DNA of 53,763 nucleotides. Source: Acidimicrobiia bacterium. Lineage in GTDB: Bacteria; Actinomycetota; Acidimicrobiia; Acidimicrobiales; CATQHL01. The position numbers and the translations under genes are program-made. The stretch's first letter is position 1. Each line of letters starts with the position of its first letter. The notes beneath the pieces were generated by a model, which was not told the origin of the DNA, did not search any database, and was given only the letters and a program-made list of their open reading frames with translations. This document shows, piece after piece, positions 12,135-39,251 of this stretch. Location of the stretch: NCBI GenBank assembly GCA_009840735.1, contig VXNF01000058.1:1-53763 (forward strand), given 5' to 3'.

Positions 12135-12135
12135 G

Positions 12136-12919: not shown

Positions 12920-12929
12920 CGGGCCGATC

Positions 12930-15145: not shown

Positions 15146-15216
<71 letters not shown>

Positions 15217-16992: not shown

Positions 16993-17004
16993 GAGTCACC
17001 GCCC

Positions 17005-17649: not shown

Positions 17650-17703
17650 ACGGGCGCGGCGAGACGATCCGATCTATCAGCACGAGCAGCAGGAGGAGGA
17701 CTG

Positions 17704-18969
17704 TTGGCCAAGCTTGGTGAGGGAGAGCTCCTCAAATGCTCTTTCTGCGGCAAGACTCAGAAGCAGGTCAAGAAGCTCATCGCTGGACCCGGCGTCTATA
17801 TCTGCGACGAGTGCATCGACCTCTGCAACGAGATCATCCGCGAGGAGTTCGAACCGCCGGAGGTCCCGATGGGCGACCTGCCGAAGCCGGCGGAGATATT
17901 CGAGTTCCTGAACGACTACATCGTGGGCCAGGAGAGGGCCAAGAAGATCCTCTCCGTGGCTGTCTACAACCACTACAAGCGCCTCCAGCTGGGCTCAGCG
18001 GCCGGCAGCGACGACGTGGAACTGGCCAAGTCCAACGTGCTCCTCATCGGTCCCACTGGCTGCGGTAAGACCCTCATGGCCCAGACCTTGGCGAAGATCC
18101 TGAACGTGCCGTTCGCTATCGCCGACGCCACGGTCCTCACCGAGGCCGGCTACGTGGGCGAGGACGTCGAGAACATCCTGCTGAAGCTCATCCAGGCCGC
18201 CGACTACGAGGTGAAGCGCGCCGAGACGGGCATCATCTACATCGACGAGATCGACAAGATCGCCCGCAAGAGCGAGAACCCCTCGATCACCCGAGACGTG
18301 TCCGGCGAGGGTGTGCAGCAGGCTCTGCTGAAGATCCTGGAGGGCACCACCGCCTCGGTGCCGCCCCAGGGCGGGCGCAAACACCCGCACCAGGAACTCA
18401 TCCAGATCGACACGACCAACATCCTGTTCATCTGCGGCGGGGCCTTCGCCGGCCTCGACGAGATCGTGGAGAACCGCATCGGCCGCAAGGGCGTGGGATT
18501 CGGCGCTGACGTGCGCCCGCTGGAGGAGAAAGACCTCGGCGAGCTCTACAGCAAGGTCCAGCCGGAGGACCTGCTGCGCTTCGGCATGATCCCCGAGTTG
18601 GTCGGGCGGCTGCCGGTGGTCGGCGCGGTGTCGAACCTCGAGCAGGACGCCCTCGTGCGCATCCTCGTGGAGCCCCGCAACTCGCTCACGAAGCAGTACC
18701 GCAAGAAGTTCGAGTACGAGAACGTCGAGCTGGAGTTCACCCCCGAGGCTCTTGAAGCCGTGTCCGAGGTGGCCATGGCCCGCGGCACCGGGGCGCGGGG
18801 CCTGCGCGCCGTCATGGAAGAGGTGCTGCTGGACCTCATGTTCGAGCTTCCAGGGCGAAGCGACGTCGAGCGCTGCGTCATCGACGCCGCCACCGTGCGG
18901 GCCAACGCCAATCCCACTCTGGTGCCGCGACTGCGGCCCGCCGAGGCTGCACGGCGCGCCGCGTCCTGA
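17704..18969 (+). CDS. clpX: ClpX, AAA+ unfoldase of the ClpXP protease
   Basis: A 421-residue ATPase that recognises, unfolds and feeds substrates into ClpP. The N-terminal zinc-binding domain shows CSFCGK and CDECIDLC (residues 12-15 and 36-42). Walker A is GPTGCGKT, Walker [11 protein letters not shown], and the pore and RKH-loop region reads [12 protein letters not shown]. The ClpP-docking loop reads KGVGFGADV, a VGF in place of the usual IGF. The start is TTG 17704, fixed by the strong AGGAGGAGG immediately upstream (about 17690-17699) and by the family's N-terminal length. Confidence 0.97.
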
Positions 18970-20882: not shown

Positions 20883-22181
20883 GTGTCGCCGCAGGCGCCG
20901 CGGGGCACCCGCGACATCCTCGCACCGGAGTCGGCGCGGCTGCGGGCCCTCGTGGAATCCTTCGCTGCCGCCGCCGAGCTTGCAGGCTACGGCCAGGTCG
21001 TCTCGCCCATGTTCGAGCAGATCGAGGTGTTCCAGCGGGTGGGTGAGGCCACCGACATCGTCTCCAAGGAGATGTACCAGTTCCGGGATCCGGGCGACCG
21101 GCATCTGGCGCTGCGCCCCGAGCTGACCGCATCGCTGGCTCGGGCCTTCGTGCAGCACCGCCCGCCGCTGCCGTGGAAGGCGTGGTACGAGGGACCGCAG
21201 TTCCGCTACGAGAAGCCCCAGGCGGGGCGCTTCCGGCAGTTCCACCAAGTCGGCGCCGAGCTGTTCGGCAGCGACGACCCGCAGGCCGACGTGGAAGTGA
21301 TCGCCCTGGCGTGGCGGTTCTGTCGGCGCCTCGGCCTCGGTGAGCTGCGCCTGGTGGTCAACTCGCTGGGTGACCGCTCCGACAGGGAGACCTATCGGGC
21401 GGCGCTGTCCGATTACTTCCAGCGGCGGGCCGGGGAGCTGTCGGCGCCGGGGCGGGAGACGCTGAGGCGCAACCCGCTGCGCCTGCTGGACTCCCGCCGC
21501 CCCGAGGATCGGGCCGTCCTGGCCGGCGCGCCGGTCATCGACGACTACTGGTGCGAGTCGGCGACCGAGCACTTCGGGGCGGTGCGCTCGGGGCTGGAGG
21601 CGCTGGGAATCCCGTTCGAACGCGACCCCCGGCTGGTGCGCGGCCTGGACTACTACCGGCGCACCGCCTTCGAGCTGGCCTCAGATGCGCTCGACGGGGC
21701 ACAGGACGCCGTGGGAGGCGGCGGACGCTACGACGGGCTCGTCGCTGACCTGGGCGGCCCGGAGACGCCGGGCGTGGGGTTCGCGCTCGGCAGCGACCGG
21801 CTGCTTCTGGCCTGCGACGCCGAAGGGACGTTCCCGGCGCCGGCGGCGGCGGCGGACGTGTTCGTGGTGGACACCACCGGCGGCGCTGCGGCCACGCTGG
21901 TGGCCGAGGAACTGCGCGGGGCGGGCATCCGGGCCGGGCGGGCCTTCGACGGTCGCTCCATGAAGGCCCAGATGAAGGCTGCGGACCGCTCCGGGGCGCG
22001 CTGGGCGCTGCTCATCGGCCCCGACGAGCAGGACGCCGGCGAGGTGTCGCTGAGAGAGATGCGCGGGCACGGGGCCGCGGCGTCCGCGGAGTCGGTGCAG
22101 CGGCGGGTGCGGCGCGCGGAGGTGGCGGCGGAGATCACTCGCCTGCTGGTGGCCGCCGCCGCAGAAGGGAGCGCGCCGTGA
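20883..22181 (+). CDS. hisS: Histidyl-tRNA synthetase
   Basis: A class II synthetase, 432 residues. Motif 1 region (YGQVVSPMFEQIEVFQRV), motif 2 (WYEGPQFRYEKPQAGRFRQF, residues ~101-120), the histidine-binding LVRGLDYYRRTAFE and motif 3 (GVGFALGSDRLLL) are all present. The C-terminal anticodon-binding domain ends at TRLLVAAAAEG. GTG 20883 is the start. The gene overlaps aspS by 4 bases (GTGA), giving translational coupling; hisS-aspS pairs are common in bacteria. Confidence 0.97.
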   Translation: MSPQAPRGTRDILAPESARLRALVESFAAAAELAGYGQVVSPMFEQIEVFQRVGEATDIVSKEMYQFRDPGDRHLALRPELTASLARAFVQHRPPLPWKAWYEGPQFRYEKPQAGRFRQFHQVGAELFGSDDPQADVEVIALAWRFCRRLGLGELRLVVNSLGDRSDRETYRAALSDYFQRRAGELSAPGRETLRRNPLRLLDSRRPEDRAVLAGAPVIDDYWCESATEHFGAVRSGLEALGIPFERDPRLVRGLDYYRRTAFELASDALDGAQDAVGGGGRYDGLVADLGGPETPGVGFALGSDRLLLACDAEGTFPAPAAAADVFVVDTTGGAAATLVAEELRGAGIRAGRAFDGRSMKAQMKAADRSGARWALLIGPDEQDAGEVSLREMRGHGAAASAESVQRRVRRAEVAAEITRLLVAAAAEGSAP

Positions 22182-23926
22182 ACGAAGCGCGAGGCATGCG
22201 GACCCACTACTGCGGCGAGCTCGGCGTCGCCGAGGCGGGCGAGCAGGCGGTGGTCTGCGGCTGGGTGGACCGGCGGCGCACCCACGGCGAGCATCTGGCG
22301 TTCCTCGACGTGCGCGACCACACAGGTGTGGTGCAGTGCGTCGTGGACGAACGCATCGACGCCCGCGCCGAGTACGTGGTGCGCATCGCCGGGGCGGTGC
22401 GGATGCGGCCCGAGGGCACCGCCAACCCGGCGCTGGCAACCGGCGAGATCGAGATCGGCGACTGCCGCGTGGAGATCCTCAAGCGGGCCGAGCCGCTGCC
22501 GATCCCGCTGCATGCCGACGTGGACGAGAACCTCCGCCTTCGTTACCGCTACCTCGACTTGCGCCGCGCCCGCCTGCAGCGCAACCTGCGCATCCGGGCC
22601 AGGGTCAACGCCGCCATCCGGGAGGCGATGGACGCCCAAGGCTTCGTAGAGATCGAGACCCCGATGCTCGTGGCCTCCACCCCCGAGGGGGCGCGTGACT
22701 TCGTGGTGCCCTCGCGGCTGCATCCGGGCGAGTTCTACGCCCTCCCGCAGAGCCCGCAGCTCTTCAAGCAGCTCTGCATGGTGGGCGGGCTGGACCGCTA
22801 CTACCAGATCGCTCGCTGCCTGCGCGACGAGGACCTGCGGGCGGACCGGCAGTTCGAGTTCATGCAGCTCGACGCCGAGGCCGCCTTCGTGGGTGCCGAG
22901 GAGATCATCGACTTCATCACCGCGGCGGTCAGCCACACCGTGGAGGCGGTGACCGGCGACCCCCTCGGCGAGGTGCCGGTCATCACCTGGAACGAGGCGA
23001 TGGGCCGCTACGGCAGTGACAAGCCCGACACCCGCTTCGGCATGGAACTGATCGACTGCACCGACCTCTTCGCCGCCACGGCGGCACGCGTCTTCCAGGT
23101 TCCCTGCGTGAAGGGGATCACCGTCGCCGGCGGCGCCGAGATGGGCCGCAACCGGATCGACGAGCTGACCGCGGCCTGCAAACGCTGGGGGGCCAAGGGC
23201 CTGGCCTGGTTCCGGGTGGGCGCCGCCGCCGACGGCTCGCCGGTGCTCGACGGCGCGCTCTGCAAGTTCATGTCACCGGAGGAGCAGGCGGCTCTGCCGC
23301 AGCGGCTGGAAGCTGCTCCCGGCGACATGGTCATGCTCATCGCGGACGCCCAGCGGCTCGCTGAGCGGGTGCTCGGGCTGCTGCGGTTGGAGTTGGGGCG
23401 GCCGCCGGTCAGCGAGGGCGCCCTGGCGCCGCTGTGGGTGGTGGACTTCCCGCTGTTCGAGGACATCGACGAGGACGGGAACCCGCAGCCCGCCCACCAT
23501 CCGTTCACGATGCCGCACCCCGACGACCTGGACTACCTGGTGCGGGACGGCGGCGAGTCTCTGCTGCGGGTGCGCTCGCAGGCCTACGACCTGGTCATCA
23601 ACGGCTGGGAGCTGGGCTCGGGCAGCGTGCGGATCCACGACGCCGACACCCAGAAGCAGGTCTTCGCCGCCCTCGGAATCGACGAGGCAGAGGCCGAGCG
23701 CCGCTTCGGCTTCCTGCTGGAGGCCTTCGGCTACGGGGCGCCGCCCCATGCCGGGTTCGCCTTCGGAATCGACCGGCTCGCGGCACTGCTGGCGGGCGAG
23801 GAGAACATCCGCGAGGTGATCGCCTTCCCGAAGACCCAGTCGGGCGCCGACCCGCTCACCGGCGCCCCGGGACCCATCGAGCCTCGGCACCTCACCGAAC
23901 TGGGACTGCGACTCCGCCCGGCCTGA
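22178..23926 (+). CDS. aspS: Aspartyl-tRNA synthetase
   Basis: A class IIb synthetase of 582 residues: OB-fold anticodon domain first (VVCGWVDRRRTHGEHLAFLDVRDHTG), then the catalytic core with motif 2 (YYQIARCLRDEDLRADRQFEFMQLD) and the bacterial insertion domain, and motif 3 (GFAFGIDRLAALLAG). The start is GTG 22178, overlapping the hisS stop. Whether it charges tRNA-Asn as well cannot be decided here; if the genome has GatCAB and no AsnRS, it would be non-discriminating. It converges on the end of the sterol operon, 27 bases away. Confidence 0.97.
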   Translation: MNEARGMRTHYCGELGVAEAGEQAVVCGWVDRRRTHGEHLAFLDVRDHTGVVQCVVDERIDARAEYVVRIAGAVRMRPEGTANPALATGEIEIGDCRVEILKRAEPLPIPLHADVDENLRLRYRYLDLRRARLQRNLRIRARVNAAIREAMDAQGFVEIETPMLVASTPEGARDFVVPSRLHPGEFYALPQSPQLFKQLCMVGGLDRYYQIARCLRDEDLRADRQFEFMQLDAEAAFVGAEEIIDFITAAVSHTVEAVTGDPLGEVPVITWNEAMGRYGSDKPDTRFGMELIDCTDLFAATAARVFQVPCVKGITVAGGAEMGRNRIDELTAACKRWGAKGLAWFRVGAAADGSPVLDGALCKFMSPEEQAALPQRLEAAPGDMVMLIADAQRLAERVLGLLRLELGRPPVSEGALAPLWVVDFPLFEDIDEDGNPQPAHHPFTMPHPDDLDYLVRDGGESLLRVRSQAYDLVINGWELGSGSVRIHDADTQKQVFAALGIDEAEAERRFGFLLEAFGYGAPPHAGFAFGIDRLAALLAGEENIREVIAFPKTQSGADPLTGAPGPIEPRHLTELGLRLRPA

Positions 23927-23953
23927 GTCGGCACAACCGGGCGCCGGCGTGGC

Positions 23954-26900
23954 CTACCGCGGCGTCGCCAATGCGCCCTCAGCGGCCCTCGTCGCCGGTT
24001 GGGCCTGTCGCCGCTGCTCGAACAGAGCGAGGGCGTGCAGCGGGAAGTGTTGCCGGTACATCACGTAGTCCAGCAGAGCGGTTCGGAAGAACACACCGGC
24101 GGCATCCTGGGCGGGCCACCGTCCCTGGCTGTCCTGCGTGTCGATCAGGAACCGCGCCCCACGGGAGATCGCCGCCCAGTCCGGGTCGCCGGCCTCCAGC
24201 AGGGCGATCAGTGCCCAAGCCGTCTGAATGACCTGACTCTCGGAGTGCGCCACGTAGCGTCCGCTCGCACAGCCGCTGTGGTGCTCGCCCCAACCGCCGT
24301 CAGCCAGCTGGCGCTCAGCCAGCCAACCACAGGCCGACCGCAGCGCCGGATCCGCAGCGCCAGCGCCGGCGGCCAGCAGTCCCCTGATCCCGAAGAACGT
24401 GCCGTAGATGTACTGGACGCCCCAGACGCCCCGCCAGGAGCCGTCGCGCCGCTGGGTGCGGCGCAACCACGCCTCCGCCCGCTTCACGGCTCGGGCGGCG
24501 TCGCTGCCCAGCACCTGCGGGGCCCGCTCCGCGCAGGCGGCGAACGCCGCGAGGCACGACGCCGTGCATTCCACATGGGAATGCTCGGTCATCGACTCGC
24601 CGAACATCTCCGCCGGGTTCAGCCACTCGAGGCCCACAGCCGAGCGGCGTGACTCGTAGCTGCCGAAGCCCCCGTCGCGGTTCTGGCCCCGCAGCATGAA
24701 GCGCACGGCCTCCCCGAGCGCCTCGGCGTTGGCCCAGTCAGCGTCGGCGGCGAGCAAGCCGCGGACCGCCTCGGCCGTGCAGTCCGTCACCGGCCAGCCG
24801 TGCCACGCCCCGGCGAAACACCAGCCACCCCTCGGGTCGATCCGGTCGGCCGCGGCGAACCCGTCGAAGGAGGCGCCGATCTGTTGGCGGATGAGGAAGT
24901 CAGAGCCGCGCCGCAAGGCGGGCGCGACCTCCCCAGAGGGCGCTGCGAGCGCTAGGGCTTGCAGGGCGAACCCGGTGTCCCAAGAACCGCTCCGGGCGCC
25001 GGCGATGCGGGTTCCGGCCTCCTCGTCCTCCCAGATCCAACCGTCGAGGCGGGCGAGCGCCTTGGCGCAGTCGGCGTCCTCGGGGTCTCGCAGCCACAGG
25101 GCCAGAATGTTCAAGAGGCCGCTCACCGGCGAGATGCTGGTGTGGTCGGTGGTTCGCAGCTCCCACCGAATGCGGTCGAGAAGCGACTCGGCGCAGCGGC
25201 CCCTCAGCCGCTTGCCGCCGAGGCGTCCGTGCAGTCGGGCCAACAGGTAGCCCGCCCGGACACACGCGCTGGGCCGGGCGAACAGGTCGCCTCGGCGCAG
25301 GCGGTTGCGGGAAGCGGCGAAGTGTACGTTCTCGAATCCTTGCGGGTACAGCTCCTCCCGCACGGACTCGATAACAGGCGTCACCGGCGCCTGAGGTTGC
25401 AGGGGGTACACCGCCGCCATCGCCATGTAGATGAGCCGGGTGTGGCAGTACCAGTTCGAGGGATGCAGCGGCAGCCAGCGCGGCAATCGCCACAGCTCCG
25501 CGGGAAGTGGATTGACGCCCCGCCAGTCGTAGAGGTTCAACAGCGCCAGCCAGAACTTCCCCCAACTCGGGATGCCCGTCACGCCCTCAGCGCGCAAGAA
25601 CTTCCCAGCCGGCGCCACGAGGGGATCGTCCCGCTCGACGCCCAGCAGCCGCGCCGCCACATAGACGAGGGCGGTAACGAACAGGTGAGGCGGTGAGTGG
25701 GCGTGCAGGCCCCAGGTGCCGCCCTCTAGGCGAGTGTGCTCGAAGGAGCGCAGCACGAGCCGGCGGCGGTCCGCTTCGAGAGGCTGACCGATGATGTGGT
25801 GCAGCAGCGCGTACTGGGCGGTGAGCATGGGGCACCACACCATCTCGCCTTCCCAGGAGCCGTCGTCTCGCTGGAGGCTCACCAGGTGATCGACGGCGCG
25901 CCCCATGGCGTCGGCGCCCTCGGGCGGCTCGCTGCGGTCAACCTCGAGACTGGGGTCTGGCCGCGGCATGGAGATCAGGAAGGCGTTGGACAGGGTCGCC
26001 CGCGCCCGCTCGGTCTTGGCGGTGACGCCTCCCGATCTGCGCATCTGCAGCATCCCGCGCCACAGCCACAGGAAGCGAAGCGACAGCGCGTTCAGGATGC
26101 CCCCCGCCCGCCGCCAAGCAGACGGCCGATAGGTCCGGGCCGCCTCGGTTGCGGCCGCCCGCAGCGCTGTGGCGCCGCACGCCCAACTCAAGCTGGCGAC
26201 CGACGTGTCCTCACACGCCAGCAAGCGGATCGTGCGGTCGCGGATCGACGGCTTGGAGCGCCACTGCCGGTAGATGGCGCGCCGCAGCGCCGCGGACTCC
26301 GCCCGGGGGTCTGCGAACACTTCGTAGAGGCCCATGGCGAGCAGCTCCGGCGCCCGGGTCGCCCGCAGCCGCTTGCGGGTGAAGTCTCCGAAGCTGCCGC
26401 TTTCGGCCAGCGTGAAGGCGTCGCCGAAGCCGAGGGTCATCCCCACCGCCGTTAGCGGGTGGTAATGGCCGGCGGCGTCGCCGATGAGGACGCGGTAAGG
26501 GTTGCCGTAGGTGTGGCGGGGCCGCAGCGCATTGTTGGCGGCCAGGAAGCGTCGCTGCTGCAGGGCGTCACAGAAGGCGGGCCTCAGGGCGGCGGGCAGC
26601 CAGTCGGCGTAGGAGTCCGCTAGGGCATCGGCGCCCTCCCGAGCGGTGCGCCCCAACGGGATGTCGGCGATCAGCCGGACCGAGCCCGAGTCGAGGCGGT
26701 AGATCAGGATCGGGCCGACTTCGGTGCAGATGACGTGGCCGTAGCCCTCGAAGGGCAGTTCCACGTCGTGCAGGATCACCCCGAGCATGCGCGAGCAGGT
26801 CTGCGGCTTGGCGGGCAGCCCCAAGGACCGGCGAACGACCGAGGCTCGGCCGTCGGCGCCCACGACGAGGCGGGCCGAGACCGACCCGGACTCGCCGTCG

Positions 26901-27325
26901 CGGCTGTAGGTGACCTGCTCGGCGGCGACGCCCCGCACGCGCGCCCTCATCAGCAGGTCCACGCCCGGCTCGCGCGCCACGGCTTCGCGCAGGCGTCTGA
27001 CGAGCCGTTCGTGCTCGGTCGCCAGCCCGTGCAGCCCGTCCGGGTAGGGCAGCAGGATCGGCTCGGAGCGGTCCTCGGGGTACACGACGAACCCCTGCCC
27101 CCGGGCGGTGCGCGCGTCTTGTTCGACTTCGATGCCGAGCCGGCTGAGGATCCGCAGCGCGGGCGGGTGCAGCCATTCGCCGGCCAGCCGCTTGGAGGTG
27201 TTGGGGTTCGCTTCGAGCAGGGCGACCGACGCGCCCCGCCGGGCGTGAGCCAGGGCGCACAGGCTCCCGACCGGCCCGGCGCCGACGACGGCGACGTCGT
27301 AGCGGCGGTCGGCGGCGAGGCTCAC
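23954..27325 (-). CDS. Squalene epoxidase-oxidosqualene cyclase fusion protein
   Basis: One uninterrupted 1123-residue frame encodes two consecutive sterol enzymes. Residues 1-~430 are an FAD monooxygenase of squalene-epoxidase type: GAGPVG at 15-20, VVGADGRASVVR (154-165) and IGDAAGHYHPLTAVGMTLG (281-299), then a hydrophobic helix (409-425) that could anchor it in the membrane. Residues ~470-1123 are an oxidosqualene cyclase: DCTAE at 848-852 (Asp848 protonates the epoxide; hopene cyclases have DXDD instead) and several QW repeats (QRDDGSWEG, QNRDGGFGSYE, QRRDGSWRG, QLADGGWGE). The start GTG overlaps the CYP51 stop (GTGA). M453 is a possible internal start but has no ribosome site, supporting a true fusion. 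Last gene of the operon. Confidence 0.92.
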   Translation of the reverse strand: MSLAADRRYDVAVVGAGPVGSLCALAHARRGASVALLEANPNTSKRLAGEWLHPPALRILSRLGIEVEQDARTARGQGFVVYPEDRSEPILLPYPDGLHGLATEHERLVRRLREAVAREPGVDLLMRARVRGVAAEQVTYSRDGESGSVSARLVVGADGRASVVRRSLGLPAKPQTCSRMLGVILHDVELPFEGYGHVICTEVGPILIYRLDSGSVRLIADIPLGRTAREGADALADSYADWLPAALRPAFCDALQQRRFLAANNALRPRHTYGNPYRVLIGDAAGHYHPLTAVGMTLGFGDAFTLAESGSFGDFTRKRLRATRAPELLAMGLYEVFADPRAESAALRRAIYRQWRSKPSIRDRTIRLLACEDTSVASLSWACGATALRAAATEAARTYRPSAWRRAGGILNALSLRFLWLWRGMLQMRRSGGVTAKTERARATLSNAFLISMPRPDPSLEVDRSEPPEGADAMGRAVDHLVSLQRDDGSWEGEMVWCPMLTAQYALLHHIIGQPLEADRRRLVLRSFEHTRLEGGTWGLHAHSPPHLFVTALVYVAARLLGVERDDPLVAPAGKFLRAEGVTGIPSWGKFWLALLNLYDWRGVNPLPAELWRLPRWLPLHPSNWYCHTRLIYMAMAAVYPLQPQAPVTPVIESVREELYPQGFENVHFAASRNRLRRGDLFARPSACVRAGYLLARLHGRLGGKRLRGRCAESLLDRIRWELRTTDHTSISPVSGLLNILALWLRDPEDADCAKALARLDGWIWEDEEAGTRIAGARSGSWDTGFALQALALAAPSGEVAPALRRGSDFLIRQQIGASFDGFAAADRIDPRGGWCFAGAWHGWPVTDCTAEAVRGLLAADADWANAEALGEAVRFMLRGQNRDGGFGSYESRRSAVGLEWLNPAEMFGESMTEHSHVECTASCLAAFAACAERAPQVLGSDAARAVKRAEAWLRRTQRRDGSWRGVWGVQYIYGTFFGIRGLLAAGAGAADPALRSACGWLAERQLADGGWGEHHSGCASGRYVAHSESQVIQTAWALIALLEAGDPDWAAISRGARFLIDTQDSQGRWPAQDAAGVFFRTALLDYVMYRQHFPLHALALFEQRRQAQPATRAAEGALATPR

Positions 27326-28731
27326 CGGAGGGCGGTCGGTTGGGGTCGCCGCCGGTAACCCAACCTGCACGGCTCGGTGGGGCCGGTCACCCAACTGCCG
27401 TAGTGGGGAGCGGGGACCGGCGTGGTCGCCTCGAAGTCGAAGCGGTCCAGCAGCACGGTCCAGATTGCCTTGAGCTGCAGGTAGGCGAAGCGTTTGCCCA
27501 TGCAGCGGTGCTTGCCGCCGCCGAACCCGATGAGGGCGTAGGTGTGCTGCTTGTCCTCCTGCGCGGGTGGCGCGAACCGGTCCGGGTTGAACCGGTCCGG
27601 GTCGCTGAACACCTCCGGCAGGCGGTGCGAGGCGGCCGGGGACACCATGGCCATGGCCCGCGCCGGCACGACGCGGTCCCGATAGCGCAGCGGCGCCAGG
27701 ACCTTGCGGATCAGCAGGATCAGCGGCGGGTGCAGGCGCTCGCACTCCCGCACGGCGTTCTCGAGTACTGCCTGGCGAGAGAGGCCTGCCAGGCTCACGG
27801 TCCCTGAGTCGCCGTACACCTCGGCCGACTCGGTTCGGATCCGGTCTGCGTACGGCCCGTGGTGCGCCAACTCCAGGCCGATCCAGGTGGCGAGCACCGC
27901 GCTGGTGTGCTGGCCGGCGAACAGCACCGTCAGCAGGATGCCCGCGATCTCCTCGTCGTTGAGGCGTCGCCCGTCGGAGTAGCGGGCGCCCATGAGCGTC
28001 TGCATGAAGTCGTCCGGCTCGACGCCGGCGCGGCGGCGCTCGGACATGACCCGCTCGAACATGGCCGCGATCTGCCGCCGCGCCCGGTCGCGGCTGCGGT
28101 GGGCTGCGGTGGGCAGGCGAGGGAAGAAGAACCCCAGCGTGTTGATGCCGTTCTGCAGGTCGTGGTAGGCGTCGGCGAACCCCTCGTCCACGAGGTCCCG
28201 GACTTCCTGTCCGATGAGGCAGCGGCTGGCGATGCGCACCGTGAGAGCGTTCATGGCGCGCGGCAGGTCGATCTCGCCCTCGGCGCCGAGCGCGTCGGCG
28301 AGGCGGCACGTCTCCTCGAACATGACCGGCGGAAAGGTCTCCATCATGGACTCGCGCAGCGCCGGGTACAGGAAGCCGAGTTGCTCGTCCATGAGCTCGG
28401 TGGAGACGTCATAAGCCACGCCGCGCCCGAAGATCGGCACGGTGAACTGATAGACGTCCTTGGCGCTCAGCTGCGTCTCCGGCGCTCTGAAGTAGGCGTC
28501 GTGCGCCTCGGGCCCGCTGAAGATCACGAACTGCCGCGGCCCTAGCCGGAAGCGGACCAGGTCGCCGTGGTCGTGGGCGGCGCGCCGCAGCATCGCAACC
28601 GGTTCTCGCTGGAACTCCCGCAGATGCCCGACCAGGGGCTGCGCCCCGGAGAGTTCGGGAGGCGCTGCGCCGGCCGTCGCCCCCGCGCCGTTCGAGGGCG
28701 CCGTGGTCGCTTGGGGCGGTGCCTGTGCCAT
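27322..28731 (-). CDS. cyp51: CYP51-like sterol 14alpha-demethylase cytochrome P450
   Basis: A 469-residue P450 that should remove the 14alpha-methyl of a lanosterol/cycloartenol-type sterol, using O2 and a reductase. The I-helix FAGQHTSAVLATW (271-283) has the AGQHTS typical of CYP51; ExxR is E329-R332; the heme loop FGGGKHRCMG has Cys410. The B'-C region VYQFTVPIFGRGVAYD (93-108) also matches CYP51. The first ~28 residues are low-complexity and no transmembrane anchor is seen, as in other bacterial CYP51s. ATG 28731 lies 7 bases from the reductase stop. It overlaps the fusion gene by 4 bases. No ferredoxin gene is in the cluster. Confidence 0.92.
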   Translation of the reverse strand: MAQAPPQATTAPSNGAGATAGAAPPELSGAQPLVGHLREFQREPVAMLRRAAHDHGDLVRFRLGPRQFVIFSGPEAHDAYFRAPETQLSAKDVYQFTVPIFGRGVAYDVSTELMDEQLGFLYPALRESMMETFPPVMFEETCRLADALGAEGEIDLPRAMNALTVRIASRCLIGQEVRDLVDEGFADAYHDLQNGINTLGFFFPRLPTAAHRSRDRARRQIAAMFERVMSERRRAGVEPDDFMQTLMGARYSDGRRLNDEEIAGILLTVLFAGQHTSAVLATWIGLELAHHGPYADRIRTESAEVYGDSGTVSLAGLSRQAVLENAVRECERLHPPLILLIRKVLAPLRYRDRVVPARAMAMVSPAASHRLPEVFSDPDRFNPDRFAPPAQEDKQHTYALIGFGGGKHRCMGKRFAYLQLKAIWTVLLDRFDFEATTPVPAPHYGSWVTGPTEPCRLGYRRRPQPTALR

Positions 28732-28738
28732 CGCGGGC

Positions 28739-29845
28739 TCAGTAGAGGTAGGGGACCATGGAGTAGCGGACCCGCTCGGTGTAGCGCCGCCAGAGGTCCC
28801 CGTACTTGGCGGCGCAGCGACGGTCGTCCCGCCGGGAGCGGTGTACCAACAGCCCGGCCAGCCAGGCAGGGAGCAGGAAGGGCACCCACGACCTGCCGCC
28901 GGCACACAGCGCGAAGGACAGGTACACGCAGATCTCCCCGGTGTAGTTGAGGTGCCGGCCGAGCCCCCAGAACCCCGAGACCAACAGCCGACCGTCCAGC
29001 GCCTCCGCCGGCCGTCCCCACACGGCGCAGGCAGGGTCGTTCTTGAAGCGATGCTTCTGGTCGTTGGCACCCCGGAACATCCAGAACCCCAGCGAGAACA
29101 GCACGCAGATTCCTGCGGCGGCGAGCGGGGTGAGCGTCTCTGGCTGGTGAATGAGCGACCAGCCCACGATGCAGTAGAAGAAGGGGACGAGGACGTAGTC
29201 GCCCCAAACCAGCATCCAACCGAACCGCTCGCTCAGCATGTCCCAGGTGTTGACCATTCCCTGCTCGAACTGGAAGTAGTTGAGAACGTAGGCGAACGCC
29301 AACACCTGATAGAGGACCATGCCGAGGGTGAGCCGACCGTAGGTCTCGTGTTGCACGACAGCGAAGGACACGTTGAGCAGGGCGAGGCCGATGAGCGACG
29401 GCCGGTAGCTGAACAGCTTGAGGTCCACGCCCGCCAGCGCGGGGTTCAGCTCGGTGCCGAAGAAGTATCCCCGCCACAAACCAGCGGGGCGGTTCGGTGA
29501 GCGTCGGCCACGCGCGTACAGCCAGCCCGACAGCCCGAAGGCGAACACGTTGGCTGCCACGAACAGAGCGGTGAAGTGAGAATGCAAGCCTGCCAAGGGC
29601 GAGCGGTAGAGCAGGCCCAAGAGGATCGCCGCCAGCATGGTCGCCAGGAAGACAACCATGCCGTTGACCTTGTAGACGCACCGCTTGCCGTTCAGCGGCG
29701 GCCCCTCGATCCTGCGCCCCGGCAGAACTGCGGACGCGGCGAAAAGCGCAGCGACGAAGCCGCCGAGGACGGCCGCGGCGACGGCCAGGGTCGCCGGAGA
29801 CACCCGAGAGAACGAGAAGTACCAGTCAGACAACTGCGGTGACAC
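28739..29845 (-). CDS. ERG24/ERG4-family sterol reductase (probable C14 reductase)
   Basis: A 368-residue polytopic membrane protein of the sterol-reductase family that includes Delta14-reductase (ERG24, TM7SF2), Delta7-reductase (DHCR7) and Delta24(28)-reductase (ERG4). The two family signatures are GTELNPALAGVDLKLFSYRP (~130-149) and LLVSGFWGLGRHLNYTGEIC near 285-304, with the C-terminal YSMVPYLY. NADPH is the expected donor. Being directly before the 14alpha-demethylase favours Delta14 reduction, because CYP51 creates the Delta14 bond. An ERG4-like role after C24 methylation is the alternative. GTG 29845 starts 20 bases inside the SdmA gene. Confidence 0.88.
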   Translation of the reverse strand: MSPQLSDWYFSFSRVSPATLAVAAAVLGGFVAALFAASAVLPGRRIEGPPLNGKRCVYKVNGMVVFLATMLAAILLGLLYRSPLAGLHSHFTALFVAANVFAFGLSGWLYARGRRSPNRPAGLWRGYFFGTELNPALAGVDLKLFSYRPSLIGLALLNVSFAVVQHETYGRLTLGMVLYQVLAFAYVLNYFQFEQGMVNTWDMLSERFGWMLVWGDYVLVPFFYCIVGWSLIHQPETLTPLAAAGICVLFSLGFWMFRGANDQKHRFKNDPACAVWGRPAEALDGRLLVSGFWGLGRHLNYTGEICVYLSFALCAGGRSWVPFLLPAWLAGLLVHRSRRDDRRCAAKYGDLWRRYTERVRYSMVPYLY

Positions 29846-30965
29846 CTTGGTCGGCTTGGCGGGCCAGATGTTCCTGCCACTTGCGCACGGTCACCGCCTG
29901 GAACTCCCGCACCACCGGATTCACCTCGATGGGCGGCGCGTGCCAGTGCTTCTCGTATCCCTCCTGCTCGGCCTCCACCGCTACCCGGTCCTGGCCGAGA
30001 AGGGGGCCGATGAGGGTCCGGTTGGCGATCTTGAGGACCAGCGTCATGAGCGTGCGGGGTATCCGCACCGGCAGTAGGGGAATCTTCAAGGAGCGGAAAT
30101 AGAAGAGGAAGAACGCTCGGGTGGTGCGCTCGTCGATCGGCAGCACGAACAGCCAGTGCTTGATGTCGTCGTCGGTGTTGGACCACTGGTACGGGTACTC
30201 GTAGCAGAGCTCCATGTGGTTTGTGTTCACGCGCCGGTGGTCCACGAACAGACCCGAGATGCGCCCGCGCCCGACGAGGGTGTTGTATTCCAGGTGAACG
30301 TTGTCGCCGACGGTCTCGCATCGTGTGAGGTCGGCACCGGTGAAGGGTCGGTAGCGGCGGTGAAGGTAGGCGTGGGAGAAGTCGCTCACGTTGTCGATTA
30401 TCACCGAGTGGTGCGCGGTGCATGTGAGGCTCAGCGGCACGCAGGCCCAGCGACCGTGGCCTTCGAGTTCGGGGATGTGGGGAATCGGGCGCGCCTCGGC
30501 CAACTCCGGGTCGCCGGGGAAGATCCACACCAGGCCGTAGCGCACCGTGACCGGGTAGGTCTCCAGTGACAGCTTCGGCGCCGAGCTACGTCCGAAGAGG
30601 TCCGGGACGTGGGCGACGCGGCCCTCTTCGTCGTACTCCCAGCCGTGGTAGCCGCACACCAGCCGGCAGTCCTCCACTTCGCCGAGGCTGAGTTTGATCT
30701 GGCGGTGCAGGCAGCGGTTCTCCACGGCGCGGAACTCGCCTGCGGCGGTGCGGTACAGGGCGATGGAGCGATTCCAGAAGACCACCTCGACCACCGAGGA
30801 GGGCTTCACGTTGCGCACTTCCTCCACGGCGTACCAGTAGTCCGGGTCGAGCCCGGCGGCGCGTGCCCGCTGGCGAAGCGTCGTGGCGCCCTCGAAGTCG
30901 CTCGGCGGGCCGGGCGCGGCGGCTGAGGCTGGCGCGGTCGGCCCGCGGCGGGTCCGGGTGCTCAT
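29826..30965 (-). CDS. sdmA: SdmA-like Rieske oxygenase (sterol C4 demethylation)
   Basis: A 379-residue Rieske non-heme iron oxygenase. The [2Fe-2S] ligands are Cys85-His87 (CLH) and Cys104-His107 (CGYH). The mononuclear iron site is in DNVSDFSHAYLHRRY, with His198 and His202 as likely ligands. The family is known from bacterial sterol C4 demethylation (SdmA of Methylococcus), where it oxidises a C4 methyl to a carboxylate; eukaryotes use the unrelated ERG25. The assignment rests on the domain plus the neighbours. ATG 30965 overlaps the SdmB stop by 4 bases (ATGA). No dedicated reductase or ferredoxin is seen nearby. Confidence 0.88.
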   Translation of the reverse strand: MSTRTRRGPTAPASAAAPGPPSDFEGATTLRQRARAAGLDPDYWYAVEEVRNVKPSSVVEVVFWNRSIALYRTAAGEFRAVENRCLHRQIKLSLGEVEDCRLVCGYHGWEYDEEGRVAHVPDLFGRSSAPKLSLETYPVTVRYGLVWIFPGDPELAEARPIPHIPELEGHGRWACVPLSLTCTAHHSVIIDNVSDFSHAYLHRRYRPFTGADLTRCETVGDNVHLEYNTLVGRGRISGLFVDHRRVNTNHMELCYEYPYQWSNTDDDIKHWLFVLPIDERTTRAFFLFYFRSLKIPLLPVRIPRTLMTLVLKIANRTLIGPLLGQDRVAVEAEQEGYEKHWHAPPIEVNPVVREFQAVTVRKWQEHLARQADQGVTAVV

Positions 30966-32101
30966 GGGGCTGCTCCTGTGCGCGGGTCGCCGGCGGGCGG
31001 CGAGGCTGCGTCGGACTGCCTCTCGCCGGCGGCCGGGGGATTGGCCTTGGGGTTGGTGATTCTGCCGCGCCCGCAGTGAAACGCGTACGCCTCGGCGACC
31101 GCCTCGGCGATGCTGGTGGGCTCGAATCCCAACTCCTCGCGTGCTTTGGCGGTGTCGGCGTGACGGCGCAGCTGCAGAAGCCGGACGGCGCCGGGCGTGA
31201 AGCGTTGGTTGACCTTGGGGTGGAAGCGGCTCAGGTAGTAGCTGGAGACCTCTGTCAGCCCGAGCATGAAGCGGGCGGGAATCCGCCGCCCCGGCCTCGG
31301 CAGGCCCGACACCGACTCGTAGAGGTCCAGGATCTCCGAGATGGTCTTGTACTCGCTGCTGAAGATGTACTTCTCTCCCGAGCGCCCCCGTTCCATGCAC
31401 AGCAGGTGGCCGGCGACGATGTCCCGGGCCGCCACGAACTCGAAGCCGCCGTCGACGTAGGCTCGGATCGTCCCCTTGGTGTAGTCGCACATGGTCCGGC
31501 CGAGCCGCGAAGGGAAGTAGTCGTGGCCCCCGACCACCGCGCAGCAGGTGGCGACGACCACTTCCTGTCCGGTGGCGGCGGCCCGCCAGCACTGGAGCTC
31601 CATGAGCGCCTTGCTGCGCTCGTATGGCATGGTCCGGGCCATCGGGTAGAAGGGCATCGTCTCGGTGCTCGCAGCGGACGGATCGTCGAGGTCGTAGCCC
31701 ACGGCGCTGAACGAGCCCGTCACGACGACCCGTCCCGCCTCGGTCTCCCGGGCGGCCTGCAGAACGTTGCGCGTGCCGAGGACGTTGGTCTCGAACAGCT
31801 CCCTGCGATGAGCCCGGTCGCCGTCGATCGTGGATATCTTGGCTGCGACGTGGTACACGCCCCGGCAACCGTCGATGGCGCGCCGCATGGCGTCGAGGTC
31901 TCGGATGTCGCCGAAGACCGCTTCGACGTCGAGGCCGTCGACAGCTTCGTTGTTGTCCGCATGTCTCAGCAACACCCGGACATTCACGCCGTCGCCGCGG
32001 AGACGGTGCAGCAGGTTGGCGCCCACGTGGCCGGCCGCGCCGGTGAGGAAGACCGGCGCTGCGCCTGAGCGAGGGGGGGCCGTAGATTCAGCGGCAGTCA
32101 T
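30962..32101 (-). CDS. sdmB: SdmB-like NAD(P)-dependent 3beta-hydroxysteroid dehydrogenase/C4-decarboxylase
   Basis: A 379-residue extended SDR of the 3beta-HSD type. The dinucleotide motif TGAAGHVGANL is at 20-30 and the catalytic pair Tyr160/Lys164 is in YERSK. In the bacterial Sdm pathway this enzyme oxidises the 3beta-hydroxyl of the 4-carboxysterol, leading to loss of CO2. ATG 32101 is supported by GGAGG about 8 bases upstream. It overlaps sdmA by 4 bases, so the pair is translationally coupled as expected for partners. The C-terminal ~30 residues (Asn/Ala/Pro-rich) look disordered. A separate 3-ketoreductase is not evident in the cluster. Confidence 0.88.
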   Translation of the reverse strand: MTAAESTAPPRSGAAPVFLTGAAGHVGANLLHRLRGDGVNVRVLLRHADNNEAVDGLDVEAVFGDIRDLDAMRRAIDGCRGVYHVAAKISTIDGDRAHRRELFETNVLGTRNVLQAARETEAGRVVVTGSFSAVGYDLDDPSAASTETMPFYPMARTMPYERSKALMELQCWRAAATGQEVVVATCCAVVGGHDYFPSRLGRTMCDYTKGTIRAYVDGGFEFVAARDIVAGHLLCMERGRSGEKYIFSSEYKTISEILDLYESVSGLPRPGRRIPARFMLGLTEVSSYYLSRFHPKVNQRFTPGAVRLLQLRRHADTAKAREELGFEPTSIAEAVAEAYAFHCGRGRITNPKANPPAAGERQSDAASPPAGDPRTGAAP

Positions 32102-32289
32102 ACTTCGGACCTCCGATCTGCGGTGCGCGCTGGGCCGCGCCCCGTCTCGCTGGATCTTGGCTTCACCCGGAATGATGGCTCTCGTGGCGCACAGTCAACT
32201 GCCCGAGTCCGTCGCGGGGTGGATGCACGATACTTCACGGAGTCTCAACGGTGGCGAAGGTGACTCTGGCGCGGGCGCTGTGGCCGCAG
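32102..32289 (-). promoter_or_regulatory. 188-base gap inside the sterol locus, possible second promoter
   Basis: This is the only sizeable gap in the cluster; other junctions overlap or are under 10 bases. It lies upstream of sdmB, whose ribosome site GGAGG is at its 5' edge. No protein-like frame was found. It may hold a second promoter for the five-gene sdmB-to-cyclase unit, but I could not define -10/-35 boxes. Confidence 0.3.
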
Positions 32290-32850
32290 TCAGAATCGAC
32301 CGCGCTGGGCGGCACGCAGCACGTTGCGCCCGTAGATCCGCAGCGTGCGGATCAGTGTCGTGAAGTCGAGCGTGCTGAAGATGGTGTCGGCCACCCCGAA
32401 CGGCAACATGGTGGGTATCCCGCCGCGGGCGTATTCGAGGATCCAGGCGCCGTCCACCATGCGGTACGACTTCGCCTGACCTCGGCCCAGGTGGAACGAC
32501 TCGCCGCGGCGGTACTCCTGGCGTCGCAGGTCGCCTTCTCCGAAGTACCACATCTCGCCGTCGAGGATCACCATGTCGTCGGCCGCCCAGCGATAGCGCC
32601 CGGTGTGGCCCATGTTCCCGATGGGGTTGCCGAAGAAGATTACGTACTCGCGCAGCGAGGCGTACAGGATGGCGATCTGGCCCATGGCGCCGCCGGCGTT
32701 GGACAGGAACCACTCCGGCTCGGTGTCGATGAGGCCCGGATAGCGTTCGGCCAGGTCTGCGATGATCGCCGGGAACATCTCCTCCAGCGGCAGATCGAGG
32801 TGGGTGTGGGCCACCTCCCGCAGCACCGCCGGGTCGAAGACGTACTTCAT
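32290..32850 (-). CDS. ERG2/sigma-1-receptor-type sterol C8 isomerase
   Basis: A 186-residue protein that matches the ERG2_Sigma1R family almost end to end: YVFDPAVLREVAHTHL (3-18), WFLSNAGGAMGQIAILYASL (47-66), EYVIFFGNPIGNMGHTGRY (68-86) and WILEYARGGIPTMLPFG (136-152). Glu139 aligns with the catalytic Glu of the Delta8-Delta7 isomerase/sigma receptor fold (Glu172 in human sigma-1, from memory). The N-terminal membrane helix of the eukaryotic proteins is missing, so it starts directly at the cupin-like domain. It should move the Delta8 double bond to Delta7. ATG 32850 is 3 bases after the methyltransferase stop. Confidence 0.9.
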   Translation of the reverse strand: MKYVFDPAVLREVAHTHLDLPLEEMFPAIIADLAERYPGLIDTEPEWFLSNAGGAMGQIAILYASLREYVIFFGNPIGNMGHTGRYRWAADDMVILDGEMWYFGEGDLRRQEYRRGESFHLGRGQAKSYRMVDGAWILEYARGGIPTMLPFGVADTIFSTLDFTTLIRTLRIYGRNVLRAAQRGRF

Positions 32851-32853
32851 CGC

Positions 32854-33873
32854 TCAGCCGGGCTTGCGGGCCAAGAAGCAGTACAGCGGCGTGAACACCC
32901 CGGCGCGGCCGCCGGCGACGAGCGCGTCACCCCCTGCGTTGAGGATCGTGCTGACCGCCGCGGCGCCTTCGGGCGCCAGCCGCAGCCGCTGCGCGACCCG
33001 CAGCGTCATGTTGATTAGGGCGCGCCCGGCGGGGGTGCGCGGAATGCTCGCCAGGCTGAGGTCCCGGCCTTGCAGGGCGCGGTACCAGGGAGTGTCGGGG
33101 TGCGACTCTGCGGCGCGGTCGCCCTCGGTCAGAATCTCGAACCCGGCGGCGGCCAGCGCGGCGCGGACCTCAGCGTTGTCCCCCAGGTCGGGCAGCCCAG
33201 CGCCGATGAGGATGTCTCGCTTGATCCGCTGGTGCTCGGGGTCCTGCGGGTCGAATCGTTCGGTCAGGCACCACTCCTGGCCCAAGAAGCAGGCGCCGGG
33301 TCGCAGCACGCGGAGTATCTCCGCGAACACCGCGCCCCGGTCGGGTGCATGGCACATTGACTCGATGGCGATCGCCGCGTCGAACCGGTCGTCCTCCTCT
33401 GGGATCTGCATGAAGTCGCCGTGGATGAAGCGGCACAACGAGGCGACGTCACGGGTGTGATGTTTGGCCCGTTCGATCTGGTAGGCGTTGAGGTTGAGGC
33501 CGACCATGGTGGCGCCGTAATGGCGGGCGAAGGTGCCCATCGGCCCGCCGACGCCGCACCCGGCGTCCAGCACCGTCATCTCGGGCCCCAGCGACAGCTG
33601 GGCGGCGAGCGAATGCTGGTGGCGCAGGAGGGACGCCTTGAGGTTCTCACCTCGTTCCCGCGGGGCGAAGTGGAACGAGGTGCCCCAGCCGAACTCGTAG
33701 AAGTCCGTGGCCAAGTCGTAGTACTGGGTGACGAGCGACCGGTAAAGCTCTCTTCTGCGCTCGGGGTCCGCGTCCTGGCTCTCGATGTACTCCTCGAGGA
33801 CCGGCCGCACCTGTGGAACGGTCAGCGCCGACCAGGTTCGTTGGCGCGGTCCTTTGGCGGTTGTCGGGGTCAT
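32854..33873 (-). CDS. Sterol 24-C-methyltransferase (ERG6/SMT type)
   Basis: A 339-residue SAM-dependent methyltransferase. The sterol-binding signature reads YYDLATDFYEFGWGTSFHFA (51-70), nearly identical to region I of ERG6/SMT enzymes. The SAM motif is LDAGCGVGGPM (102-112), and IAIESMCHAPDR (168-179) and GQEWCLTERFD (198-208) match later SMT regions. The expected reaction adds a methyl to C24 of a Delta24 sterol. It is the first gene of the locus, transcribed divergently from a secreted-protein gene, with only a weak ribosome site before ATG 33873. gamma-Tocopherol or other methyltransferases share the fold, but the YEFGWG segment and operon favour sterol. Confidence 0.9.
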   Translation of the reverse strand: MTPTTAKGPRQRTWSALTVPQVRPVLEEYIESQDADPERRRELYRSLVTQYYDLATDFYEFGWGTSFHFAPRERGENLKASLLRHQHSLAAQLSLGPEMTVLDAGCGVGGPMGTFARHYGATMVGLNLNAYQIERAKHHTRDVASLCRFIHGDFMQIPEEDDRFDAAIAIESMCHAPDRGAVFAEILRVLRPGACFLGQEWCLTERFDPQDPEHQRIKRDILIGAGLPDLGDNAEVRAALAAAGFEILTEGDRAAESHPDTPWYRALQGRDLSLASIPRTPAGRALINMTLRVAQRLRLAPEGAAAVSTILNAGGDALVAGGRAGVFTPLYCFLARKPG

Positions 33874-34156
33874 GGAATCCAGTCGGGCTCGGTCCGCCGC
33901 GTCGGGACAGGTCGCCCCTGTCGGGCGTGAGGCCTCATCCTACGGTCGGCTCGTGGCGCGGGTGCCGGAGGCCGCGGGCGCGGGCGGACCCTGCGCCAGC
34001 GAGCCGCGAGTGGGGCCGCCAGCTGGTATCACCCACCGCGGCGGCTGCTCGTGCAATGATCGCGGCGGGCATGGTGCCGCAGAACACCGACAGCCGCCGG
34101 GGCGGGCGGGCCACCGCACCGCACCGGCGCCAGATCGAGCACCGCAGGAGCATTCG
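33874..34156. promoter_or_regulatory. Divergent intergenic region upstream of the sterol locus
   Basis: These 283 bases separate the first sterol gene (minus strand) from a secreted-protein gene (plus strand), so both promoters should lie here. Reading frames through it are low-complexity and not convincing as genes. No clear inverted repeat or promoter boxes were identified. Confidence 0.4.
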
Positions 34157-36656: not shown

Positions 36657-39251
36657 ATGTCCGGAGCCACAGCACGAGAGCTGCGCAGCAGTTTCACCGG
36701 GTTCTTCGCCGAGCGCGGCCACACGATCGTGCCATCGGCGAGCCTCATCCCGTATGACCCCACGCTGCTGTTCACCGTCGCCGGGATGGTGCCGTTCAAG
36801 GCCTACTTCACCGGCGCCGAGCCGTCGCCCTACAAGCGCGCTACGACGGTCCAGAAGTGCGTGCGGGCCGGCGGCAAGCAGAACGACCTCGACGAGATCG
36901 GCCGCACCAGCCGCCATCTCAGCTTCTTCGAGATGCTGGGCAACTTCAGCTTCGGCGACTACTTCAAGCCCGACGCCATCGCTTGGGCCTGGGAGTTCTC
37001 CACCGAACGCCTCGGTTTCGACCCTGACCGCCTCTGGATCACCGTCCACCTCAGCGACGACGAGGCCGCGGAGATCTGGCGTGACGGCGTCGGCGTGGCA
37101 CCGGAGCGCATCCAGCGCCTCGACGAGGACAACTTCTGGCGCATGGGCGAGGTCGGCCCGTGCGGGCCGTGCTCGGAGATCTTCTTCGACAAGGGCGAGC
37201 GCTACGGGCCAGGCGGCGGACCGGCCCACGGCGGCGACGAGCGCTACGTGGAGTTCTGGAACCTGGTGTTCATGCAGTTCGAGCAGCAGGCCGACGGCTC
37301 GATGGTGCCCCTGCCCAAGCCGAGCATCGACACCGGCGCCGGCTTGGAGCGGGTCCTGACGCTGCTGCAAGGCGTGGAGTCGGTCTTCGACATCGACGAG
37401 ATGGCGCGGCTCGTGGCCAAGGCCTCTGAGCTGTCCGGCGTGCCCCTCGGCGCCTCGGCGGCCGCCGACGTGTCGCTGCGCATCCTGGCCGAGCATGCCC
37501 GCACCATGACGTTCCTGATCGGCGACGGCACCTTCCCGTCCAACTCCGAGCGCGGTCACGTGCTGCGCCGGATCATGCGCCGCGCTGTGCGCCACGCCTA
37601 CCTGCTCGGCGTGCAGAGCGTAGTGACGCCGCTGTTGGTGGACGAGGTGACCGACATCATGGGCCACGACTACCCCGACCTCCCCGGCAATCACGCCTTC
37701 ATCCGCGACGTGGTCGAGCGGGAGGAGGTCCGCTTCCGCGAGACCCTCGGCCGGGGGTCGGTGCTGTTGGAGGAAGCGCTCGTGGGCCTCAGCGAAGACG
37801 AGCCTCTGGGGGGCGAGGTGACGTTCCTGTTGCACGACACCTACGGGTTCCCCTTCGAGGTGACAGAGGAGATCGCCCGAGAGCGCGGCGTGGCTCTGGA
37901 CCGCGAGGGTTTCGAGGCCGAGCTGGCCGAGCAGCGTCGCCGCGCCAGGGAGGACTTCGCCTCCCGCTCCACGGCGGCGGACGACCTGAGCGTCTACCTG
38001 GAGGTGCTGGAAGAGTTCGGCGAGACCGAGTTCGTGGGCCGCGACCGCGACGAGTCCACCGCCCGGGTGCTGGCCGTGACCGCCGAGGGTGTGGTGCTCG
38101 ACCGCACGCCGTTCTACGCCGAGGCCGGCGGGCAGATCGGCGACACCGGCAGGCTCTACCCCGACGGCGACGAGGCGGCCCTGGCGGTCACCGACACCAC
38201 CTACGTGGTGGCGGGCCTGCACCTGCACCATGTCGAGGGCGCGGTCGCCCGGCTGCGGGCTGGCCAGAGCGTGCGGGCGGTCATCGACGGCAGCCGGCGC
38301 GCCGCCATCCGCCGCCACCACACCGGCACCCACATCCTGCACTGGGCGCTGCGGGAGGTGCTGGGAACCCACGTCAAGCAGCAGGGCTCGCTGGTGGCGC
38401 CGGACCGGCTCCGTTTCGATTTCAGCCACTACGGCGGCCTCAGCGGCGAGGAGGTCGTCGCCGTCGAAGACTTGGCCAACGCGGAGATCCTGGCCAATCC
38501 CTCCTGCCGCCACTACGAGACCTCGATGGCTGAGGCCAAGGCGGCGGGAGCGATCGCGTTCTTCGGGGACAAGTACGGCGAGACCGTGCGGGTCTTGGAG
38601 GCCGGTCCCAACTCCATTGAGCTGTGCGGCGGCACCCATGTGCGGGCGCTGGGCGACATCGGGCCGCTGAAGATCGTCTCGGAGGGCTCCATCGGATCGA
38701 ACATCCGTCGTCTGGAGGCCGTGTGCGGGGACATCCCGATCCGGCGGCTGCGCCAAGCCGAGTCCCGCCTCGCCGAGGCGGCTGGCGTGCTCGGCGTGCC
38801 GCCCGAGGACGTCGTAGCGGGAGCGAGCCGCTGGGCCGGCGAACTGAAGGCCCTGCGCGACGAACTGAGGGAGCTGCGGCGGCGGGCCGCCGGCGACCGC
38901 GCCGGTGATCTGGCCGCAGCCGCCGAGGGCGGCTTGGTGGTGGCGCGCCTTGACGGCGTGGACCGCAACGAGCTGCGCGACCTGGCCGTGGCGGCGCGCG
39001 ACCGCGAGGGTGTGAGCGCTGTGGTGCTCGCCACCGCGCCGGGCAGCGGCGGCGTTGCGTTCGTGTCCGCGGTGGTGCCCGGGGCGGGCTGGCACGCCTC
39101 GGACCTGCTCAGCGACGCCCTCCGGCTCGTCGGCGGGGGAGGGGGCCGCAACCCCGACTTCGCCACCGCCGGAGGGAAAGACGCCGGACGCCTCGACGAG
39201 GCGCTCGACTTGGTGCGCCGAGCGGCCGAGGCCCAGCGCGCCGGGACCTGA
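36657..39251 (+). CDS. alaS: Alanyl-tRNA synthetase
   Basis: An 864-residue class II synthetase. The N-terminal catalytic core shows LLFTVAGMVPFKAYF and RHLSFFEMLGNFSFGDYFK; the editing domain has HHTGTHILHWALREVLG and CGGTHVRALGDIG, which carry the zinc/editing His and Cys; the C-Ala region closes with GGGGRNPDFATAGGKD. Length and order are typical of the family. ATG 36657 lacks a strong ribosome site. It begins the classical alaS-ruvX-mltG-aroE group, but the next three genes here are reversed and converge on it. Confidence 0.97.
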   Translation: MSGATARELRSSFTGFFAERGHTIVPSASLIPYDPTLLFTVAGMVPFKAYFTGAEPSPYKRATTVQKCVRAGGKQNDLDEIGRTSRHLSFFEMLGNFSFGDYFKPDAIAWAWEFSTERLGFDPDRLWITVHLSDDEAAEIWRDGVGVAPERIQRLDEDNFWRMGEVGPCGPCSEIFFDKGERYGPGGGPAHGGDERYVEFWNLVFMQFEQQADGSMVPLPKPSIDTGAGLERVLTLLQGVESVFDIDEMARLVAKASELSGVPLGASAAADVSLRILAEHARTMTFLIGDGTFPSNSERGHVLRRIMRRAVRHAYLLGVQSVVTPLLVDEVTDIMGHDYPDLPGNHAFIRDVVEREEVRFRETLGRGSVLLEEALVGLSEDEPLGGEVTFLLHDTYGFPFEVTEEIARERGVALDREGFEAELAEQRRRAREDFASRSTAADDLSVYLEVLEEFGETEFVGRDRDESTARVLAVTAEGVVLDRTPFYAEAGGQIGDTGRLYPDGDEAALAVTDTTYVVAGLHLHHVEGAVARLRAGQSVRAVIDGSRRAAIRRHHTGTHILHWALREVLGTHVKQQGSLVAPDRLRFDFSHYGGLSGEEVVAVEDLANAEILANPSCRHYETSMAEAKAAGAIAFFGDKYGETVRVLEAGPNSIELCGGTHVRALGDIGPLKIVSEGSIGSNIRRLEAVCGDIPIRRLRQAESRLAEAAGVLGVPPEDVVAGASRWAGELKALRDELRELRRRAAGDRAGDLAAAAEGGLVVARLDGVDRNELRDLAVAARDREGVSAVVLATAPGSGGVAFVSAVVPGAGWHASDLLSDALRLVGGGGGRNPDFATAGGKDAGRLDEALDLVRRAAEAQRAGT

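Follow-up and report, generated by a model that had tools for sequence, protein, structure and literature searches.

The DNA analysed here, a stretch of 53,763 nucleotides (the window) from an Acidimicrobiia bacterium, carries on the minus strand at 32854–33873 a gene for a protein of 339 residues, which was classified by Pfam domains, tree position and key residues as a sterol C24-methyltransferase of the SMT/ERG6 type (hereafter SMT) and is the first gene of a sterol operon. The open reading frame (33873..32854) starts with ATG and ends with TGA, the plus strand contains two stops in the same frame, and the third-position GC of 0.88 is like that of the adjoining genes. Both the YEFGWGTSFHF sequence (residues 59–69) and the SAM motif of the preliminary description were read in this minus-strand frame, the latter as motif I, LDAGCGVGGP, at residues 102–111. 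In Pfam, the class I SAM domain (Methyltransf_11) was identified with an E-value of 1.3e-19, and the SMT-specific C-terminal domain (Sterol_MT_C) with an E-value of 1.3e-17, its 64.1 bits being well above the gathering score of 21.7. The ATG of the next gene, ERG2, is located at 32850, leaving the gap of 3 bp that had been described, and the upstream neighbor (about 34.0–35.9 kb), which gave no Pfam match and is also present in genus-mates lacking the cassette, is divergent, in agreement with the placing of SMT at the head of the sterol locus.

Besides SMT, seven sterol activities are encoded by six adjacent open reading frames on the same strand. The first, ERG2 (32290–32850; 186 residues), is a sterol Delta8-Delta7 isomerase related to the sigma-1 receptor (Pfam ERG2_Sigma1R, 205 bits), and was aligned to sigma-1 receptor structures with an E-value of 2e-36. 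After a spacing of 188 bp follow an SdmB-like short-chain dehydrogenase for sterol C4 demethylation (30962–32101) and an SdmA-like Rieske oxygenase for sterol C4 methyl oxidation (29826–30965; start read from the sequence), both assigned by NCBIfam with scores well under the cut-off of 600: the former matched the sterol demethylase protein SdmB (E-value of 5.5e-87, 293 bits; equivalog cut-off) and the latter the 4beta-methylsterol monooxygenase (1.6e-115, 386 bits). Next are a Delta14-sterol reductase of the ERG24 type (28739–29845; Pfam ERG4_ERG24, E-value of 2.7e-70), whose match to the solved structure 4quv, a Delta(14)-sterol reductase, scored 233 bits, and a CYP51 sterol 14alpha-demethylase (27322–28731), for which all the top solved matches are CYP51 (the first being 6mcw with an E-value of 6e-98) and which contains the motifs YQFTVPIFGRGVAYD and FAGQHTS. 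The last gene (23954–27325; 1123 residues) encodes a fused squalene monooxygenase–oxidosqualene cyclase (SQMO-OSC) as a single open reading frame without internal stop, carrying the Pfam domains SE, SQHop_cyclase_N and SQHop_cyclase_C. Overlaps of a few bases were observed between SdmB and SdmA (the ATG of SdmA lies on the SdmB stop), SdmA and ERG24, and CYP51 and SQMO. Among the cassette genes, none was recognized for the steps of ERG3, ERG5 or ERG4. Two SQS_PSY genes are present in the genome and could supply squalene.

The OSC part of the fusion protein contains the DCTAE motif and gave 423 bits to human lanosterol synthase as compared with 209 bits to squalene-hopene cyclase. In our own reading of the alignment, the positions of human T381, C449 and V453 are occupied by A, H and V, respectively. 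We take V at this position to favor lanosterol, and H to be the residue of plant cycloartenol synthases; the pattern is mixed between lanosterol and cycloartenol synthases, and by these residues the cyclization product may be of either type. A second cyclase, inferred to be of the hopanoid type and about 30% identical to OSC, was found in another part of the genome (L156, C96:33000–46000) near two squalene/phytoene-synthase genes, and the organism may make both hopanoids and sterols.

For comparison of the SMT residues, provisional reference sequences of yeast ERG6 and Arabidopsis SMT1 and SMT2 were used, and against these the identity is about 44% with Arabidopsis SMT1 (331 columns) and about 38% with yeast ERG6. 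Within region I, Y81, E82, G84, W85, G86, S88, F89, H90 and F91 (yeast numbering) are all kept, and the conservative change Y83F is the only one among the key positions listed; E98, H107, D125, C128, E195, H199 and E224 are kept as well. In place of D/E152, Y223 and E246 of the yeast and Arabidopsis SMT1 references, the residues are A, Q and L, respectively; within the SMT's own clade, A and M often occur at 152 and 246, while Q223 is not common. Matches of the SAM domain extend to CMAS, Ubie and numerous NCBIfam methyltransferases, and the best solved matches are MitM and rebeccamycin-type methyltransferases, as might be expected if the protein only resembled SMT and were some other SAM methyltransferase, acting on quinones, polyketides or small molecules or of the cyclopropane type. 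The solved non-sterol methyltransferases, however, align over the SAM domain only, and no equivalog cut-off of NCBIfam was reached, so that the affiliation with tocopherol or polyketide methyltransferases, which the preliminary description had named as the outcome that would speak against it, is not seen in the profile evidence. Given also Sterol_MT_C, the identity to the provisional Arabidopsis SMT1 sequence and the complete sterol operon around the gene, such another kind of methyltransferase has almost no probability, and it was rejected on domains and cut-offs. The predicted identity of the product of 32854–33873 as a sterol C24-methyltransferase is supported by the C-terminal domain, the mostly kept key residues, the operon and the tree described below.

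Genome contigs were scanned for relatives of SMT, giving a total of 271 stretches, of which the best 79 loci were kept. Among these best 79 of 271, ten close SMTs with 61–69% identity were identified, most with the same cassette nearby, and the cassette genes of the relatives are 55–76% identical; the titles of the records name Alphaproteobacteria, Nitrospira/Nitrospirales, Porisulfidus and Rariloculus. Since the nearest relative is 69% identical over 336 columns, the match is far beyond chance. In the tree, SMT falls with the SMTs of sponge-symbiont sterol cassettes in a clade supported at 100/100, the sister of which (90/84) consists of Myxococcota SMTs including Sandaracinus NAT131 (L018), which holds two SMTs, one of them 53% identical to that of the window. 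To judge from its title and its pair of SMTs, this record is probably the Sandaracinus metagenome-assembled genome (MAG) of Brown et al. (2023), from the pelagic North Atlantic, two SMTs of which were active in vitro, as were most of the sponge-symbiont SMTs tested (PMC10070321). The phylogeny with ERG6, SMT1 and SMT2 that had been proposed thus groups the protein with SMTs of bacterial sterol cassettes, whereas the forks toward the eukaryotic proteins, for which the provisional sequences were used, are weakly supported. No relative was found on the viral contigs searched, and among 396 genomes of the phylum, a draw that contained no genus-mates, Sterol_MT_C was detected in this genome only.

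Two records from the scan are described separately. An Alphaproteobacteria-titled record (L010:1162-4400) carries three SMT genes in a row, two of which group with L013, L048 and L078 in a small clade of their own. In Pseudomonas fluorescens ISL-62 (L027, NZ_JAGGOG010000028.1, 1644–18536), sterol genes are located near genes of a conjugative element: two integrating-conjugative-element genes at 1644–4036, an oxidosqualene cyclase at 7505–9523, an SMT with Sterol_MT_C at 9902–10948 and a CYP51-like P450 at 12853–14199. No match to the Pseudomonas SMT was found among plasmid records. If not a contamination, ISL-62 would be a cultured bacterium in which the synthesis of 24-alkyl sterols is testable; for a myxobacterial isolate, such synthesis is described as unconfirmed in PMC10070321.

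The same assembly contains a second SMT homologue (L002/L006, 254–1294, minus strand) of 346 residues, 38% identical to SMT, which adjoins an MMPL gene on a contig of 4.7 kb. It belongs to a large divergent clade, in which Y81 is replaced by M and F89 by L in 67 of 67 members (among the best 79 of 271 loci) and whose records are titled with many bacterial phyla. Near the members of this clade, a GPP34+P450 open reading frame recurs at 42 loci and a KshA-like Rieske oxygenase at 29; MMPL proteins that match the sterol-sensing domain are also among the recurrent neighbors.

The site of the cassette was examined by blastn against the orthologous regions of genus-mates. In these, aspS is followed by a 443-residue AAA gene of the rarA type, which carries MgsA_C and was read in L135 (2435–3763) and L137, and then by the divergent hypothetical gene and alaS. 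Within the aspS–alaS interval of the window this rarA/MgsA-type gene is missing and is replaced by the sterol cassette, which occupies 23927–34050 (the right boundary being approximate). The flanks, both on the plus strand and outside the system, are aspS (22178–23926; 86–92% identity in genus-mates) and alaS (36657–39251; 87–90% where whole), and the gene order in the genome is tig-clpP-clpX-folC-hisS-aspS-alaS-ruvX-mltG-aroE. All seven genus-mates carry elsewhere in the genome an OSC of 70–72% identity, fused to squalene monooxygenase where readable, and the OSC of the window lies outside this genus clade in the tree. No CYP51 was found at an E-value below 1e-40 in any of the seven, and ERG2 was found in one (G397), standing alone and 76% identical. 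Because CYP51 was not detected in the genus-mates though all seven have SQMO-OSC elsewhere, the cassette looks acquired, and, with the replacement of rarA and the position of OSC in the tree, it was probably acquired as a complete unit from elsewhere. The fused SQMO-OSC without detectable CYP51, together with a different ERG24-family protein located elsewhere (L145–L149, L150–L155), suggests that the genus may make other sterols, perhaps 14-methyl ones.

The genome is a MAG with 84% completeness, and foreign sequence from another sponge symbiont, mis-assembled or mis-binned, could also account for cassette genes that are absent at this site in all the genus-mates examined and for similar cassettes in co-occurring phyla. 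On either side of the cassette, however, the contig of 146 kb bears genes typical of the genus, with 86–92% identity in genus-mates; the most similar cassettes known reach only about 65–73% identity, so that there is no known donor for a chimera; and the base composition of the cassette fits the flanks. A foreign origin by mis-binning is therefore very improbable, and the flanks and the synteny led to its rejection. What the sequence itself shows are the identities and the order of the genes, the conserved residues and the insertion site. The genome holds four WhiB genes, which among 14 control genomes were matched in Corynebacterium only, and is therefore that of an actinomycete; the gene order given above points to Acidimicrobiales as the probable order. 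From its relatives, the bacterium probably lives in a marine sponge.

As to the activity of SMT, the order of steps, the product and the host, we infer them from the genes and relatives described above. Very probably, SMT methylates Delta24 of the sterol made by the same operon, which was probably acquired horizontally as a unit. The fused SQMO-OSC would epoxidize squalene and cyclize it to a sterol of the lanosterol type, the 14-methyl group would be removed by CYP51 and the Delta14-reductase, and the C4 methyl group(s) by SdmA and SdmB. SMT would then alkylate C24 with SAM and ERG2 would shift Delta8 to Delta7, an episterol-like Delta7 sterol with a 24-methyl or 24-methylene group being expected at the end. 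A 24-ethyl product is possible if SMT acts twice or if the second, divergent SMT takes part. Partial pathways do occur in the group, as the genus-mates have SMT homologues of the other clade and SQMO-OSC with CYP51 undetected, and the use of host sterols was proposed by Brown et al. for a Chlamydiae SMT (PMC10070321); SMT might likewise act on sterols of the sponge host, the operon being partial, silent or decayed and without de novo synthesis. This is unlikely, since the whole set of genes that leads from the epoxidation of squalene to the Delta7 sterol is intact and contiguous here, and methylation of a sterol made by the operon itself is preferred.

Remnants of ERG2 were detected behind the SMT gene of at least two Nitrospira-labelled cassettes, in the same place. 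Directly after the SMT stop of L012, 32 residues of the ERG2 N-terminus (11033–11128) were identified with an E-value of 2e-7 in a small search, and L011 retains 14 ERG2 residues just after 11014 (E-value of 0.002). Each of these two remnants ends at a stop; L015 appears similar by eye only (just after 11014). These observations faintly suggest that SMT-ERG2 is the older arrangement, lost in the lineages of L012 and L011. A wider proposal, that the locus is a near-self-contained mobile operon for fungal-style Delta7 24-alkyl sterols (ERG6 and then ERG2), with SMT-ERG2 as the ancestral head of the cassette decayed in other phyla, is tentative and rather doubtful. If true, some sponges would owe part of their 24-alkyl Delta7 sterols to bacteria.

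Methylation of the sterol side chain at C24 was for a long time regarded as peculiar to fungi, plants and algae, and 24-alkylated steranes serve as biomarkers of eukaryotes or sponges. Every bacterial lineage with a complete SMT-bearing operon makes this use less secure, and is one more candidate for a bacterial origin of sponge sterols. The biology of the preliminary description is right, but its statement that reported bacterial sterols are mostly unalkylated is dated and no longer makes the gene surprising: bacterial SMTs, the cassette (including that of Acidimicrobiia) and the fused SQMO-OSC are already published (PMC10070321, PMC9531527, PMC7074536), and bacteria as possible sources of 24-alkyl sterols were proposed in 2022–2023 (PMC10070321, PMC9531527). 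Because closely similar operons of other sponge bacteria are published, the locus is not a new kind of system, but a new, well-preserved example of a published operon type. The additions are modest: an ERG2 that is intact and follows SMT immediately on the operon strand, the site of the replacement, the ERG2 remnants and the Pseudomonas contig. As the operon is intact, includes ERG2 and has a readable insertion site, it should be a good construct for testing the synthesis of 24-alkyl sterols by bacterial genes only.

As in Brown et al. (PMC10070321), where sterol clusters with SMTs were described for sponge symbionts and marine Myxococcota, a bacterial SMT is located here within a sterol cluster, but the predicted SMT of this actinomycete stands first in the operon, on the strand of the other genes, with ERG2 next; neither ERG2 nor Acidimicrobiia is mentioned in the main text of that paper. 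For the clusters of steroid genes (CSGs) of Ircinia symbionts, horizontal transfer over 11 classes including Acidimicrobiia was reported by Kelly et al. (2022; PMC9531527). The locus shares with them the core of ERG24, CYP51 and LSS with an upstream reductase gene and SMT nearby, ERG2 being present in several CSGs, and the order SdmB-SdmA-ERG24-CYP51-fused SQMO/OSC on one strand is that of the sponge-symbiont cassettes (CSG/msb). In the CSGs, the 3' end is usually occupied by SMT or FDFT1 in opposite orientation, whereas here SMT and ERG2 are at the 5' end and run in the direction of the other genes; SMT at the 5' end on the operon strand was also found in L047. The msb locus of a gammaproteobacterial symbiont of Melophlus (msbA-F; PMC7074536) likewise encodes an oxidoreductase, a Rieske oxygenase, a sterol reductase, a C14 demethylase, a bifunctional squalene epoxidase/cyclase and a sterol methyltransferase, but differs in taxon and SMT position, and ERG2 is not described in the available part of that report. 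With the ERG6-ERG2 segment of fungi, the locus shares the same consecutive reactions as predicted here, C24 methylation and then Delta8-Delta7 isomerization, but is different from the fungal ergosterol route with respect to C4 demethylation, which is of the bacterial SdmA/B type.
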